From Alteromonas sp. CI.11.F.A3 (lineage in GTDB: Bacteria > Pseudomonadota > Gammaproteobacteria > Enterobacterales > Alteromonadaceae), in contig NZ_CP136708.1 in assembly GCF_032925565.1 (NCBI RefSeq), positions 3,472,001 to 3,536,000 of the forward strand: 64,000 nucleotides of DNA. The letters run 5' to 3'. How positions within the stretch are numbered: the first letter of the stretch is position 1; the number at the start of each line of letters is the position of its first letter. The position numbers were made by a program, and so were the translations under genes. The notes under the pieces are model-generated. The model was not told where the DNA came from, did no database searches, and saw only the letters and a program-made list of their open reading frames with translations. Shown in pieces: positions 8,352-29,612 of the stretch.

Positions 8352-8546
8352 ATGTTTGTATGTATGTGTTACGGCGTTACCGATAAAAGCATACGCGCCG
8401 CAGTACAAGGTAATGGCGTAGGCAACATGCGTGAATTGCGTGAACATATGGAACTGGGTTCCCAGTGTGGCAAGTGCATCCAAATGGCACAACAGATTAT
8501 CGATCAAACTATCATCGATGATTCTATGTTTAAAAACGTAGGCTAG
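8352..8546 (+). CDS. bfd: Bacterioferritin-associated ferredoxin
   Basis: A small [2Fe-2S] protein that passes electrons to bacterioferritin so that stored iron is released. The 64 residues carry the four-Cys pattern of the family: Cys4-x-Cys6 at the start and CGKC near residue 40. The ATG at 8352 is preferred to an upstream TTG because GGAG lies 7 nt before it. Length is normal. A Fur-like box overlaps the promoter region, in line with expression when iron is short. No bacterioferritin gene is seen nearby. Confidence 0.93.
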   Translation: MFVCMCYGVTDKSIRAAVQGNGVGNMRELREHMELGSQCGKCIQMAQQIIDQTIIDDSMFKNVG

Positions 8547-16837: not shown

Positions 16838-17346
16838 CAGGTCCTCTCAGCGGAAAAGTTATTCCCTATAAGTGGGAATGAGCGTGTAGAATTCAAGGGT
16901 AATATTATCATAGTTTCTTGTAGGGGTTTATACTCACCGCATCTGAAAAAGGTATTTATATAACCTGTGATGCTCACACCAATTGTGGATGGCAATAATC
17001 TCATATAGCCTAGTCGCATTGGTAAGATGAAAGTGATCTTATATCTTACGCTGATATTACTTACTATCAGTACCCTAGTTTCTATCGTTTGCGACGTGGC
17101 TGATACGCATCATCAGCGAGCATTCACGATATAGGGATTTACAGGGCAATTATTATAACTAGACAAGATTTTAGAATTTTCATAAATTTGTCATTGAGTT
17201 ATACAAATTTGCCCCTACATCTACAACATGCTTTTGCTATTATAAAATAAGCATCTTAGATAAAGTATTTATACAGGCTCGTTGAACAGGCATTACGAGC
17301 TTAAATTAACGTTGTTTAAAAACATTAAACCAACACGGAGACCGAT
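16838..17346. promoter_or_regulatory. Intergenic control region, grxD / sodB
   Basis: 509 bp without a supported gene between two divergent genes. It is AT-rich and includes an inverted repeat ATGCTT / AAGCAT (17228-17254) that surrounds an AT-rich stretch and could overlap the sodB promoter. The sodB start is preceded by CGGAGACCGAT, a good ribosome site. I see no convincing Fur box, repeat or RNA gene. Confidence 0.35.
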
Positions 17347-17928
17347 ATGGCTTTTGAATTACCAGCATTACCATACGAAAAAAATGCACTTGAACCGCAT
17401 ATTTCTTCTGAAACGCTGGACTATCACTACGGCAAGCATCACGCTACTTACGTAACTAAATTAAACGGTTTAGTTGAAGGTACTGATTTGGAAAGCAAAA
17501 GCCTAGAAGAGATCATCAAGTCTTCTGAAGGTGGCGTTTTCAACAATGCAGCACAAGTTTGGAACCACACGTTCTACTGGAACTGCTTAAGCCCAAATGG
17601 CGGCGGCGAACCTACTGGTGCACTTGCTGACGCAATCAATGCAAAATGGGGCTCATTCGCTGACTTCCAAGCTGCATTCAACGACAAAGCAGTGAACAAC
17701 TTTGGATCTAGCTGGACTTGGTTAGTGAAAGCTACTGACGGTTCTCTAGACATCGTAAATACAAGTAACGCTGAAACACCAATTTCTGGTGACGAGCTTA
17801 CGCCTGTATTGACTGTTGACCTTTGGGAACACGCTTACTACATCGATTACCGTAACGTGCGTCCTAAGTACCTAGAAAACTTCTGGGCACTTGCTAACTG
17901 GGAATTTGCTAGCGCGAACTTCGCGTAA
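17347..17928 (+). CDS. sodB: Iron superoxide dismutase
   Basis: Dismutates superoxide in the cytoplasm. The 193-residue protein has metal ligands His27, His74, and the Asp and His of VDLWEHAYY (about 158 and 162). The AAQVWNHTFYWNCL segment with Gln70 is the signature of the Fe form; the Mn form would place the Gln later. Length is typical. A clean terminator follows. In many gammaproteobacteria sodB mRNA is destroyed by a Fur-regulated RNA; see the candidate at 28145-28224. Confidence 0.96.
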   Translation: MAFELPALPYEKNALEPHISSETLDYHYGKHHATYVTKLNGLVEGTDLESKSLEEIIKSSEGGVFNNAAQVWNHTFYWNCLSPNGGGEPTGALADAINAKWGSFADFQAAFNDKAVNNFGSSWTWLVKATDGSLDIVNTSNAETPISGDELTPVLTVDLWEHAYYIDYRNVRPKYLENFWALANWEFASANFA

Positions 17929-27169: not shown

Positions 27170-27763
27170 ATGAAAGCATTTAAAAAAGAACTAAAAGCCA
27201 TGATAAAAGGCACTGAGAAGCCAAAAGTGATTGAAGATACCTTCTCATTTGCTGATGCTGTGCAAGGCGTAAAGCCCATGGAGCAGGACAAGATTGTACC
27301 GAATAAGAAAGTTGCTCTAGAAAAGAAAAAGCAACTGGCAGGAGTTAAACACCTTAAAGGCAGTAAACAAGTAGCGGCGAGTTTCAGTTTTTCAGATATG
27401 TACCAAGCCGTACTTCCACAAGAAGGCCCTATGCGGTATTGCCGAGATGGCGTGCCAACGCACGTATTAAAGCAGCTTAGACGAGGAGACTATTCCCCTG
27501 AGTTTTTGCTCGATTTACATGGCATGACCCGAGAAATGGCAAAAACCGAAATAGCCTCATTGATTTATACCGCCCGCAAAGAGTCGGTAGACTGTGTTTC
27601 TATAATGCACGGGTTTGGGCAAGGCGTTTTAAAAAACGCGCTTCCTCACTACTTAATACAGCATCCCCACGTGAATGCATTCCACCAAGCACCCCTTGAA
27701 TACGGCGGACAAGCAGCATTGCTTGTTTTACTAGACGTGCCCACGCCAGAATATAAGCGATAG
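27170..27763 (+). CDS. smrB: Smr-domain ribosome rescue endonuclease SmrB
   Basis: Cleaves mRNA at collided ribosomes. The 197 residues comprise a basic N-terminal extension (about 1-90) and a C-terminal Smr domain with LDLHGMTREMA (about 113-123), IMHGFGQGVLK and the GGQAALLVLL end. The DLHG and HGxG motifs are the catalytic and RNA-binding parts of the fold. Divergent placement from prmB is as in E. coli and Vibrio. Ribosome site before ATG 27170 is weak, but no other start is as good. Confidence 0.93.
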   Translation: MKAFKKELKAMIKGTEKPKVIEDTFSFADAVQGVKPMEQDKIVPNKKVALEKKKQLAGVKHLKGSKQVAASFSFSDMYQAVLPQEGPMRYCRDGVPTHVLKQLRRGDYSPEFLLDLHGMTREMAKTEIASLIYTARKESVDCVSIMHGFGQGVLKNALPHYLIQHPHVNAFHQAPLEYGGQAALLVLLDVPTPEYKR

Positions 27764-27828: not shown

Positions 27829-27954
27829 TTACTTATCAAGCTCTGCGCTGTTGTGCATAAACATGTATGTGTAAAACACGCCCATTCCAATAATAATACT
27901 GATACCTAAAAGCGAGCCCCATACAACGGGATCTGAAATCATACTTAGTAACAT
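27829..27954 (-). CDS. 41-aa single-helix membrane peptide
   Basis: A short frame with a strong ribosome site (GAGGAGAAACACT then ATG). The product is 41 residues: a short amphipathic start with DPVVWGSLLG, one hydrophobic helix (about 12-32, GISIIIGMGVFYTYMF) and a charged tail ending AELDK. It resembles short membrane families of the DUF3149 kind, which I cannot confirm. A class II FNR-type promoter and a second FNR box lie upstream, so expression is likely under low oxygen. Small peptides of this kind often belong to respiratory complexes, but no such operon is here. Confidence 0.7.
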   Translation of the reverse strand: MLLSMISDPVVWGSLLGISIIIGMGVFYTYMFMHNSAELDK

Positions 27955-27984
27955 AGTGTTTCTCCTCACAGGGTTAGTAAGTTA

Positions 27985-28109: not shown

Positions 28110-28138
28110 TTGCAAATCATTCTCATTTGCAATACATT
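28110..28138 (+). promoter_or_regulatory. Fur box overlapping a plus-strand promoter
   Basis: The 19-mer GCAAATCATTCTCATTTGC (28112-28130) matches the Fur consensus in 13 of 19 positions on the minus strand and contains a TGCAAAT / ATTTGCA inverted repeat. It covers the spacer of a promoter: TTGCAA at 28110-28115, 17 nt, then TACATT at 28133-28138. Repression by Fur with iron would be expected. Confidence 0.6.
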
Positions 28139-28144
28139 GTACAT

Positions 28145-28224
28145 GCCTGTTCGACGTAGGTTAAAAACGGTCTTGGCTTAGCGTCGTAAGGGGAACAGAC
28201 GCCCGTCTGTTCCCCTATTTTTTT
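28145..28224 (+). ncRNA. Candidate Fur-regulated small RNA (RyhB/PrrF-like)
   Basis: About 80 nt between the Fur-box promoter and a very strong plus-strand terminator. No protein-coding frame fits. The RNA could fold into a weak first hairpin (CGACG 28152-28156 with CGTCG 28182-28186) whose large loop carries CGGTCTTGGCTTA, followed by the terminator hairpin. No plus-strand gene upstream needs this terminator: the neighbours are both on the minus strand. The layout equals that of RyhB and PrrF, but I see no clear sequence homology to either, so function is inferred from architecture only. Confidence 0.55.
28189..28224 (+). terminator. Strong plus-strand intrinsic terminator
   Basis: A 12-bp perfect stem (AGGGGAACAGAC / GTCTGTTCCCCT) with loop GCCC and then A and seven T. 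On the minus strand no T run follows the stem, so it does not serve the kinase gene that ends at 28230. Confidence 0.88.
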
Positions 28225-28229
28225 GTCTG

Positions 28230-29612
28230 TTACTTTTTCGTTTTATCAATAATAAAACGCACGCATAATCCTTTTTCTTTTCGGTTTTGAATCACTAAGT
28301 GGCCATTATGTGCATCGGTAATTTCTCGGCATAGCGCCAACCCTAGTCCACTTCCATTCGCCTTAGTGGAATAAAAAGGAACCAGCGCATTTGTCATTAC
28401 GCTATCCGTCATGCCTTTTCCACTATCGAGTACTTCTATAATAACTTGAGAGGCCGTTTGCTTGATAACGAGCTCCACATTCTGTGGGTTTCCTCCCGAC
28501 TCATGGGCATTTTTAAGCAAGTTAATTAATAGCTGTTCTACTTGGACTGCATCGGCTTTCACCTCGACAGCCTCTGGCATAGTTAACTTGAAATCGCATT
28601 GATTGCTGAGTTGCGCCGTTATTTTATCCCAATCAATCGTTGTCAAAACTGGTGGAGGCAATTTCGCAAACCTTCCATACCCTTGAACAAATTGATTTAA
28701 ATGGGCAATACGCTCTTCAATAGTGTGGAACACCCGCACCAGACGAGTATCACCATTTTGCTGCCCTACAATTTGCCCGCTATGTAACAGGCTGGAAATA
28801 GGCCCTAAGGAATTATTTAGCTCGTGACTAATCACCCTTATTACTTTTTTCCAAACCGACACTTCTTGTCGGTTAAGCTCCCGAGTCATTTGCTTAAGAA
28901 TATACAATCGATGAGTTTGGTTATTGAGCAAGAAGGTTCCGGTAGCCATATGCCACGTTTGAATACCGCTGGCATCCTGAGGCAAGGTGAATAGGCCTTC
29001 TCGGTTTTCTAACAAAACATCTTTCAGCGTGTCTGGTTTATTTTTGAGTAACGTGCCAAGGGTGTAACCCTCTAAGCTTCTGCTACCCATGCTTTTCTCG
29101 CCCAAACTGTTAGCACCTACCCCATTGGCACTATTTGCCTGTAAGTCACTATCCTCCATCTTACTTGTTGGGTGGAAGAACTCGCACGCTTGGCGGTTAC
29201 TCAGTACTACATGCATCTGGTCGTTTACTAATAATAAAACGTCAGGCGAACTATGCAGCACTTTGTCTAGCATTAGCTCTCGTTGATACAACCACTGTTT
29301 TTCTCGGCGAAGGGTTTCTGCGGTATCGTTATAAAGCTGGCATAAGGTTTCAAACTCGTCCCCCGTTTTACAAGCCAGTGTTGATGAAAACTCACCGTCT
29401 TTAAAATTGAGCAAGCCTATTTCAAGGGCATCCAATTGATTAGTTATTTGTGACGTACAGATTTTCACTGCCATTGCGCACAGGCACAAAGATGCGGTAG
29501 CAAGTAGGACTTTTTGAACAACCGACAGGTCGCTTAAATACAACATAGGCGCCATGCCTATTGCCGTAGCGCAAAGCGCTGCTACCAGAAGTTTAGTTTT
29601 AATTAACCTCAC
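28230..29612 (-). CDS. NtrY/NtrB-like sensor histidine kinase
   Basis: Membrane sensor kinase of 460 residues that should phosphorylate the regulator encoded by the overlapping gene upstream. Two transmembrane helices (about 8-25 and 34-50) with almost no periplasmic loop, a HAMP-like linker, a PAS domain (about 120-230), the H-box SHELNNSLGPISS (about 264), the N-box NLLKNAHESGG and the ATP lids DSGKGM and GSGLGLALC. The small loop suggests it senses something in the membrane, perhaps the linked ABC system. The ATG overlaps the regulator stop by 4 nt. Last gene of the operon. Confidence 0.93.
   Translation of the reverse strand: MRLIKTKLLVAALCATAIGMAPMLYLSDLSVVQKVLLATASLCLCAMAVKICTSQITNQLDALEIGLLNFKDGEFSSTLACKTGDEFETLCQLYNDTAETLRREKQWLYQRELMLDKVLHSSPDVLLLVNDQMHVVLSNRQACEFFHPTSKMEDSDLQANSANGVGANSLGEKSMGSRSLEGYTLGTLLKNKPDTLKDVLLENREGLFTLPQDASGIQTWHMATGTFLLNNQTHRLYILKQMTRELNRQEVSVWKKVIRVISHELNNSLGPISSLLHSGQIVGQQNGDTRLVRVFHTIEERIAHLNQFVQGYGRFAKLPPPVLTTIDWDKITAQLSNQCDFKLTMPEAVEVKADAVQVEQLLINLLKNAHESGGNPQNVELVIKQTASQVIIEVLDSGKGMTDSVMTNALVPFYSTKANGSGLGLALCREITDAHNGHLVIQNRKEKGLCVRFIIDKTKK

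Follow-up and report, generated by a model that had tools for sequence, protein, structure and literature searches.

An intergenic stretch of the Alteromonas sp. CI.11.F.A3 genome quite probably carries the gene for a trans-acting small RNA of about 79 nt, which would be repressed by Fur, serve to spare iron, and use two exposed seeds to pair with target mRNAs, that of sodB being the best supported. Alteromonas is a common copiotroph of the sea, much of which is limited by iron. When A. macleodii is short of iron, transcripts of iron-containing enzymes of the TCA cycle, respiration and the Entner-Doudoroff pathway fall and Ni-SOD, FumC and SUF go up, and the section of that report on iron limitation names no mediator, post-transcriptional or other, nor states how sodB behaves; in its main text “small RNA” occurs once, for CsrA, and “sRNA” does not occur (PMC7190382). 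The element described here offers a concrete candidate mediator for this response, with mapped seeds and a first predicted target, in bacteria described as genetically tractable (PMC7190382), and it is a clean case of a regulatory RNA whose seeds are kept while the scaffold is replaced. At the sequence level it has the traits of the Fur-repressed, iron-sparing class, namely a conserved Fur-like palindrome in the promoter, a short, structured, apparently non-coding intergenic RNA, and a terminator; such an RNA would probably be made under iron scarcity and would probably shut down iron-using enzymes such as superoxide dismutase.

The features of the locus and of the predicted target are collected in Table 1, with positions numbered along the window, by which we mean the whole 64,000-nt stretch of DNA analysed. 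A first-pass annotation of this DNA had proposed a Fur-like site over a promoter with a 17-nt spacing, followed by a very strong terminator on the plus strand, and this is confirmed. The promoter agrees with the sigma-70 consensus at eight of 12 positions and was not listed by an automatic promoter scan because the threshold of that scan was nine; its position is conserved in alignments of homologs. The same scan gave two promoter-like sites close by on the minus strand (28164-28136 and 28102-28074); in the segment 25000-31500 neither promoters (8 vs 12.0 in shuffles) nor terminators (7 vs 6.6) are in excess. The palindrome, TGCAAATCATTCTCATTTGCA, matches 11 of 14 positions of a 7-1-7 Fur consensus and 14 of 19 positions of a 19-mer consensus, but 12 places in the window reach the former score and six, this one included, the latter, so that a single Fur match of this quality is not beyond chance. 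The terminator is the best of the window in a crude scan that took the energy of 40-nt pieces, each followed by a T-rich octamer. No plus-strand gene accounts for these elements, as had been pointed out, since smrB lies upstream and both the DUF3149 gene and the kinase gene are on the minus strand. Neither the promoter nor the Fur match is convincing alone; it is conservation that lifts the element above chance. Among 52 aligned homologs the Fur-like box scores 11-14 of 14 against the 7-1-7 consensus in 50, and a perfect core of 14 is found in eight, six of them of the rewired genus type described below and two from another genus, g35. The iron genes to which attention had been drawn are likewise all in the window: sodB (17347), grxD (16487), and a gene for a bfd-like [2Fe-2S] protein (8352-8546, plus strand; PF04324) that is too short for the ORF list, which holds frames of at least 80 aa.

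Table 1. Positions (in the 64,000-nt window) of the candidate small RNA gene, its parts and neighbours, and the predicted sodB target.
Feature	Position	Strand	Remarks
smrB	27170-27763	+	Upstream of the element
DUF3149 small-protein gene	27829-27969	-	Pfam PF11346; usual neighbour of the element
Sigma-70-type promoter	28110-28138	+	-35 TTGCAA (28110-28115), 17-nt spacer, -10 TACATT (28133-28138); read directly
Fur-like palindrome	28111-28131		Overlaps the promoter
Predicted small RNA, about 79 nt	28145-28223	+	Start inferred from promoter, end from terminator
5' tail GCCUGUU	28145-28151	+	Predicted single-stranded; proposed first seed
First hairpin	28152-28186	+	13 pairs; loop at 28165-28172
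Conserved core ACGGUCUUGG	28167-28176	+	In loop region of first hairpin; proposed second seed
Rho-independent terminator	28189-28224	+	Stem-loop 28189-28216 (12-bp stem, 4-nt loop), then A and seven T
Sensor kinase gene	28230-29612	-	Other flank of the element
sodB, iron superoxide dismutase	17347-17928	+	NCBIfam superoxide dismutase [Fe], 350 bits vs cut-off 348
sodB site 1, AACAGGC	17285-17291	+	In leader hairpin loop; complementary to RNA 5' tail
sodB site 2, GAGACCG	17338-17344	+	On ribosome-binding site; complementary to RNA loop (CGGUCUU)

Folded alone, the predicted RNA has a free 5' tail GCCUGUU, a first hairpin with the loop AAACGGUC, and the terminator, and none of 200 shuffles is equally stable (z = -5.3), much of that stability being due to the terminator. 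The tail (GCCTGTT in the DNA) and ACGGTCTT are invariant across the 45 aligned genus copies, and the tail is also kept in 12 rewired homologs, while the helices around them vary in a compensated manner. RNAalifold on the 45 sequences gives 19 pairs, of which 13 show two-sided changes in one sequence or more (three of nine in the first hairpin and all ten in the terminator). When the first helix is followed through 52 sequences in a MAFFT alignment that was not fitted to structure, 96.6% of its cells are paired, six of its nine pairs have changed on both sides, and its covariation score of 0.684 exceeds those of shuffles (0.345, sd 0.020) and of slid versions (at most 0.194). As the 5' tail and the loop stay constant while the stems vary, they are the likely seeds; a fixed GCCUGUU end and a fixed loop ACGGUCUUGG amid a rewritten stem are what would be expected of elements that act by base pairing.

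By blastn (E <= 8.3e-10) the element is found in 45 of 58 genomes of the genus, its own included, and in none of the 40 genomes tested outside it, and when named genomes were searched by pattern, 31 stretches were returned, under the titles Alteromonas, Salinimonas, Aestuariibacter or Alteromonadaceae. Model R2, which comprises the Fur box and the core and was trained on 34 rows from the genus and nine from g35, detects the element in 58 of 59 genus genomes (E <= 2.7e-8), with scores of 55-70 bits for 12 genomes missed by blastn and outside its training set. The 12 rewired loci have a Fur box (for example TTGATAATAATTATCATTT), then ATGCCTGTT, the same loop as elsewhere, ACGGTCTTGG, and a second hairpin followed by a T-rich tail, but their first stem is of unrelated sequence (GGGTTTCCG..CGGAATCCC or GGGTATCTG..CAGATACCC); DUF3149 lies in the flank of ten of them. 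The first-pass annotation had made its case depend on the Fur site, core and terminator recurring in related species, and across the genus these are conserved or covarying in 58 of 59 genomes; its placing of the element next to a kinase operon did not generalise, as the usual neighbour is DUF3149/smrB (DUF3149 within the flanks examined of 38 of 45 loci) and the kinase is found at only nine of the 45. The draft genome G006 has no copy by R2, and none turned up within the 20 kb next to its sodB when filters were switched off. Of the second R2 matches in the genus, the eight examined (L158-L165) were discarded, as they have no core and, by eye, several clearly precede a ribosome-binding site and start codon.

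The element reaches beyond the genus. Model R3, built from all types of the element, was searched in 395 genomes of the family (E <= 0.01) and matched in 60, of which 31 belong to the genus and 29 do not. Apart from two (g72 and g48), the latter were read individually, and 23 of these 27 genomes have a Fur-like box, a first hairpin able to show GGUC(C/U), and a second hairpin; they fall into g35 (12 genomes), g40 (five), g81 (three), and g67, g73 and g45 (one each), and eight of the 23, all from g35, supplied nine R3 training rows and so match by construction, which leaves 15 independent cases. Six g35 loci were read by eye, not by automatic register, and in two loci (L347 and L352) the minimum-energy fold pairs otherwise than in the first-hairpin pattern. 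The core is absent from the other four genomes read (three from g58, one from g68); the R3 matches outside the genus that were dropped for having no core are L355, L356, L358 and L361. At the order level R3 matched in 11 of 345 genomes, seven of them in the genus, and the four outside the family (L367-L370) are, by eye, without the core. Over 295 family genomes model R1 matched in 26 (15 in the genus, 11 outside); only L104 of the outside matches looked real, and the other ten, together with L115, a second match in the genus, were put down to chance by eye; in g35, where 17 of 22 genomes had R1 matches at E <= 1, seven clear copies and those of the L125/L131/L133 type looked real. One g35 genome (G381) carries two divergent copies about 21 kb apart (L125, 1546-1618, and L131, 1467-1540), both near Fur-family genes (PF01475) and one of them immediately after a gene of Fe2+ transport (PF10634). 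By eye, the second hairpin in other genera (L131, L133, L345, L347-L349, L351, L353, L357, L359, L360) often has a UCUCC..GG-type loop with complementarity to ribosome-binding sites; a closely following T-tract is missing from the second g35 type and from most of the g40 copies. In these genera the second hairpin may be a third seed, or the RNA may be terminated differently.

Target prediction points to sodB. Both seeds were scored against the start regions of 1522 ORFs of the same genome, drawn from the blocks 0-0.8, 1.5-1.9 and 2.4-2.8 Mb together with the window (about 1.66 of 4.66 Mb, or 36%), and sodB ranked first by the summed energy of the two seeds, fourth by the tail and 58th by the loop, in a scan that was not blind, the sodB leaders having been examined before seed lengths and search ranges were set. 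Twelve varied settings that include the leader gave ranks of 1, 1, 6, 1, 4, 2, 28, 4, 2, 2, 11 and 2, four settings restricted to positions -40 to +25 gave 36-114, and a 17-nt loop alone gave 58-192; with 40 shuffled seed pairs sodB never came first, its best rank being seven. The leaders of sodB were then compared in 50 of 59 genus genomes (the 30 best matches and 20 of the rest, nine being left out), with the seeds of the window used throughout. AACAGGC lies within 120 nt of the sodB start in 24 of the 50, and GAGACCG, GAGACUCG or GAGACCCG is found at the ribosome-binding site in 38; in summed energy 31 leaders, from related species and hence not independent cases, surpass 190 or more of 200 dinucleotide shuffles (25 by the tail alone and 21 by the loop alone). 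Of 25 leaders with AACAGGC, 24 leave it unpaired in the local fold, and the hairpins that present it differ in stem sequence between species groups. The complementarity has its limits within and beyond the genus: none of seven sampled sodB leaders from the 12-species clade reaches the level of 190 in 200 shuffles, it is not significant in G006, two named Salinimonas (L214 and L216) and several others, and neither motif occurs in any of the 21 g35 leaders, although the 12-species clade, Salinimonas and g35 all have the RNA. As a single case, the one genus genome that lacks the RNA, G006 (L362, L205), is also without both sodB sites; two genomes with the RNA (L194 and L209) are likewise without GAGAC. 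The two sodB sites follow each other along the mRNA in the order that the seeds have along the RNA, so a single RNA could not occupy both in an ordinary antiparallel duplex; they could be used one after the other, by two copies of the RNA, or in a kissing-type fold. In Alteromonas proper, where the two sites are common, sodB is the best-supported target, its predicted repression being read from complementarity.

No second target that was considered proved convincing. Other iron proteins, recognised by their motifs, have no strong rank by summed score, a haem-copper oxidase being 82nd and CydA 100th of the 1522. A gene at 490033 with the look of a c-type cytochrome (a CxxCH motif and no Pfam match) was considered for the pairing of its start region with the 5' tail, and set aside: CAGGC is present in all six genomes where the match is full-length, whereas in the other 17 of 23 genomes the match falls short of the start and the inferred region has no CAGGC, so the gene gives no support as a target. 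Far from the window in the same genome, the gene at C1:16126 (minus strand; L217), presumably that of a sarcosine oxidase subunit from its appearance, has a ribosome-binding site, GGAGACCGTC, that resembles sodB site 2, and ranks ninth of 1522 with the loop seed.

The proposed mode of action can be outlined as follows. With iron plentiful, Fur-Fe2+ would sit on the palindrome inside the promoter and block transcription; with iron short, Fur would leave and the RNA would be made, ending at the strong terminator, with two single-stranded seeds on display, GCCUGUU in the 5' tail and ACGGUCUUGG in the hairpin loop. These would pair with target mRNAs, perhaps with the assistance of Hfq, which the genome encodes. 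On the sodB mRNA the tail would bind AACAGGC in the loop of the leader hairpin and the hairpin loop of the RNA would pair over the ribosome-binding site, so that translation would be blocked and iron spared, and other mRNAs would presumably be blocked likewise. A wider proposal, which we regard as speculative, is that of a family-wide class of Fur-controlled RNAs, with seeds fixed and the stem rewritten between clades, for which the sodB leader hairpin evolved as a receptor; tail and loop would then grip the sodB mRNA at two points, the loop of its hairpin and its ribosome-binding site, as a kissing-type complex that is not antiparallel, and the RNA would be the mediator of the Alteromonas iron-sparing response.

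The first-pass annotation had likened the plan of the element to that of RyhB and PrrF while calling its sequence different, and the latter judgement is borne out by covariance searches, made for RyhB over the genome and the locus and for PrrF over the window and the locus, in which no match exceeded the cut-off. No Rfam gathering score is reached at the locus or at nine homolog loci tested (L345 as a short stretch at E <= 10, and eight others). For RyhB (RF00057) the best score in the genome is 17.5 bits vs a cut-off of 55, with no match in the window and none at the locus with E <= 10; in a control search six of 14 genomes had matches, with E. coli listed first, and one was over the cut-off. 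PrrF has no match in the window at gathering score and is absent from the nine matches at the locus with E <= 10. The best weak match, to tfoR (RF02100; 26.7 bits vs 70, E 4.8e-05 for a short stretch), spans promoter DNA and was rejected. On the best reading, the element represents a separate sequence family that would work like RyhB, PrrF, BrrF and HrrF. RyhB is a short intergenic RNA with a Fur palindrome over its promoter and a terminator, and pairs at the sodB ribosome-binding site; the Alteromonas RNA has the same plan and is predicted to pair at the same place, but differs in having two fixed seeds on another fold. PrrF1 and PrrF2 of Pseudomonas have the same plan and the role proposed here, and the two copies in the g35 genome G381 recall the paired PrrF genes. 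BrrF of Burkholderia cenocepacia, from another lineage, is raised by iron depletion in a context that fits Fur control, and its targets include sodB and TCA enzymes, so that it has, by description and not by sequence, the role proposed for the Alteromonas RNA (PMC7377471). HrrF of Haemophilus influenzae is Fur-regulated, has a stability independent of Hfq and occurs in one bacterial family only, as the Alteromonas RNA appears to, but its reported targets differ (PMC4144887). In Alteromonas itself, the CsrB/RsmX analogs Aln1a-c have CsrA-binding motifs in single-stranded regions (PMC5864184), whereas the Fur-linked RNA has no repeated GGA in loops and its sole GGA sits in the terminator stem; membership of the CsrB/RsmX/Aln1 group was accordingly rejected. 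The RNA may be an unnamed one among the 127 chromosomal sRNAs that a study of A. macleodii Te101 counted; the main text of that paper does not contain the word “iron” (PMC5864184). Among the open-access matches listed, a field that excludes subscription papers and supplements, no title or opening of an abstract describes a Fur-regulated sRNA of Alteromonas.

Other explanations of the locus deserve weighing. That promoter and terminator stand together by chance, with no RNA gene, might be argued from the fact that the individual elements are not in excess, but conservation across the genus, with covariation, refutes this as far as sequence can, and its probability is next to nil. It is very improbable that the stretch encodes a short leader peptide or small protein. 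There is an ATG at 28143 that opens 12 codons (MPVRRRLKTVLA), and 24 of 45 homologs have ATG at the equivalent point; the other 21, however, have CTG, TTG, GTG, TCG or AAG there, and the distance from GCC to GGTCTT is 24, 25, 26 or 27 nt in nine, 22, nine and five of the 45 copies, so that the reading frame is not conserved. One-base length changes shift the frame, and it is the structure and not the peptide that is conserved; moreover, if the start near 28145 is right, the ATG lies at or before the 5' end of the RNA. An sRNA controlled by some other regulator, such as Zur or an unrelated factor that binds palindromes, and not specially tied to iron, gains some credit from the imperfect Fur match of the window's own box, but we hold it to be unlikely in view of the perfect Fur cores at the matching place in eight homologs and of the neighbours of the two g35 copies, Fur-family genes and, for one, a gene of Fe2+ transport.

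A closer competitor accepts a Fur-repressed sRNA and differs over its target: sodB would not be the main one, the conserved targets would be other mRNAs, and the sodB sites would be lineage-specific or in part coincidental. The RNA and its seeds do reach well beyond the species with matching sodB leaders, site 2 overlaps an ordinary ribosome-binding site of the GGAGA type, and the target scan, besides not being blind, covered about a third of a single genome. Against this, sodB comes first of 1522 with the real seeds and never with the shuffled ones, AACAGGC is presented unpaired by leader hairpins whose stems differ in sequence, and the absence of both sites accompanies the absence of the RNA in G006, although two RNA-bearing genomes also have no GAGAC. 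On balance this alternative is plausible enough to be kept in mind yet rather doubtful, and a Fur-repressed RNA with sodB as its best-supported target is the reading we prefer. Elsewhere in the window, an Rfam match to the cspA thermoregulator at 2447-2897 on the minus strand (84.2 bits) is an ordinary one.
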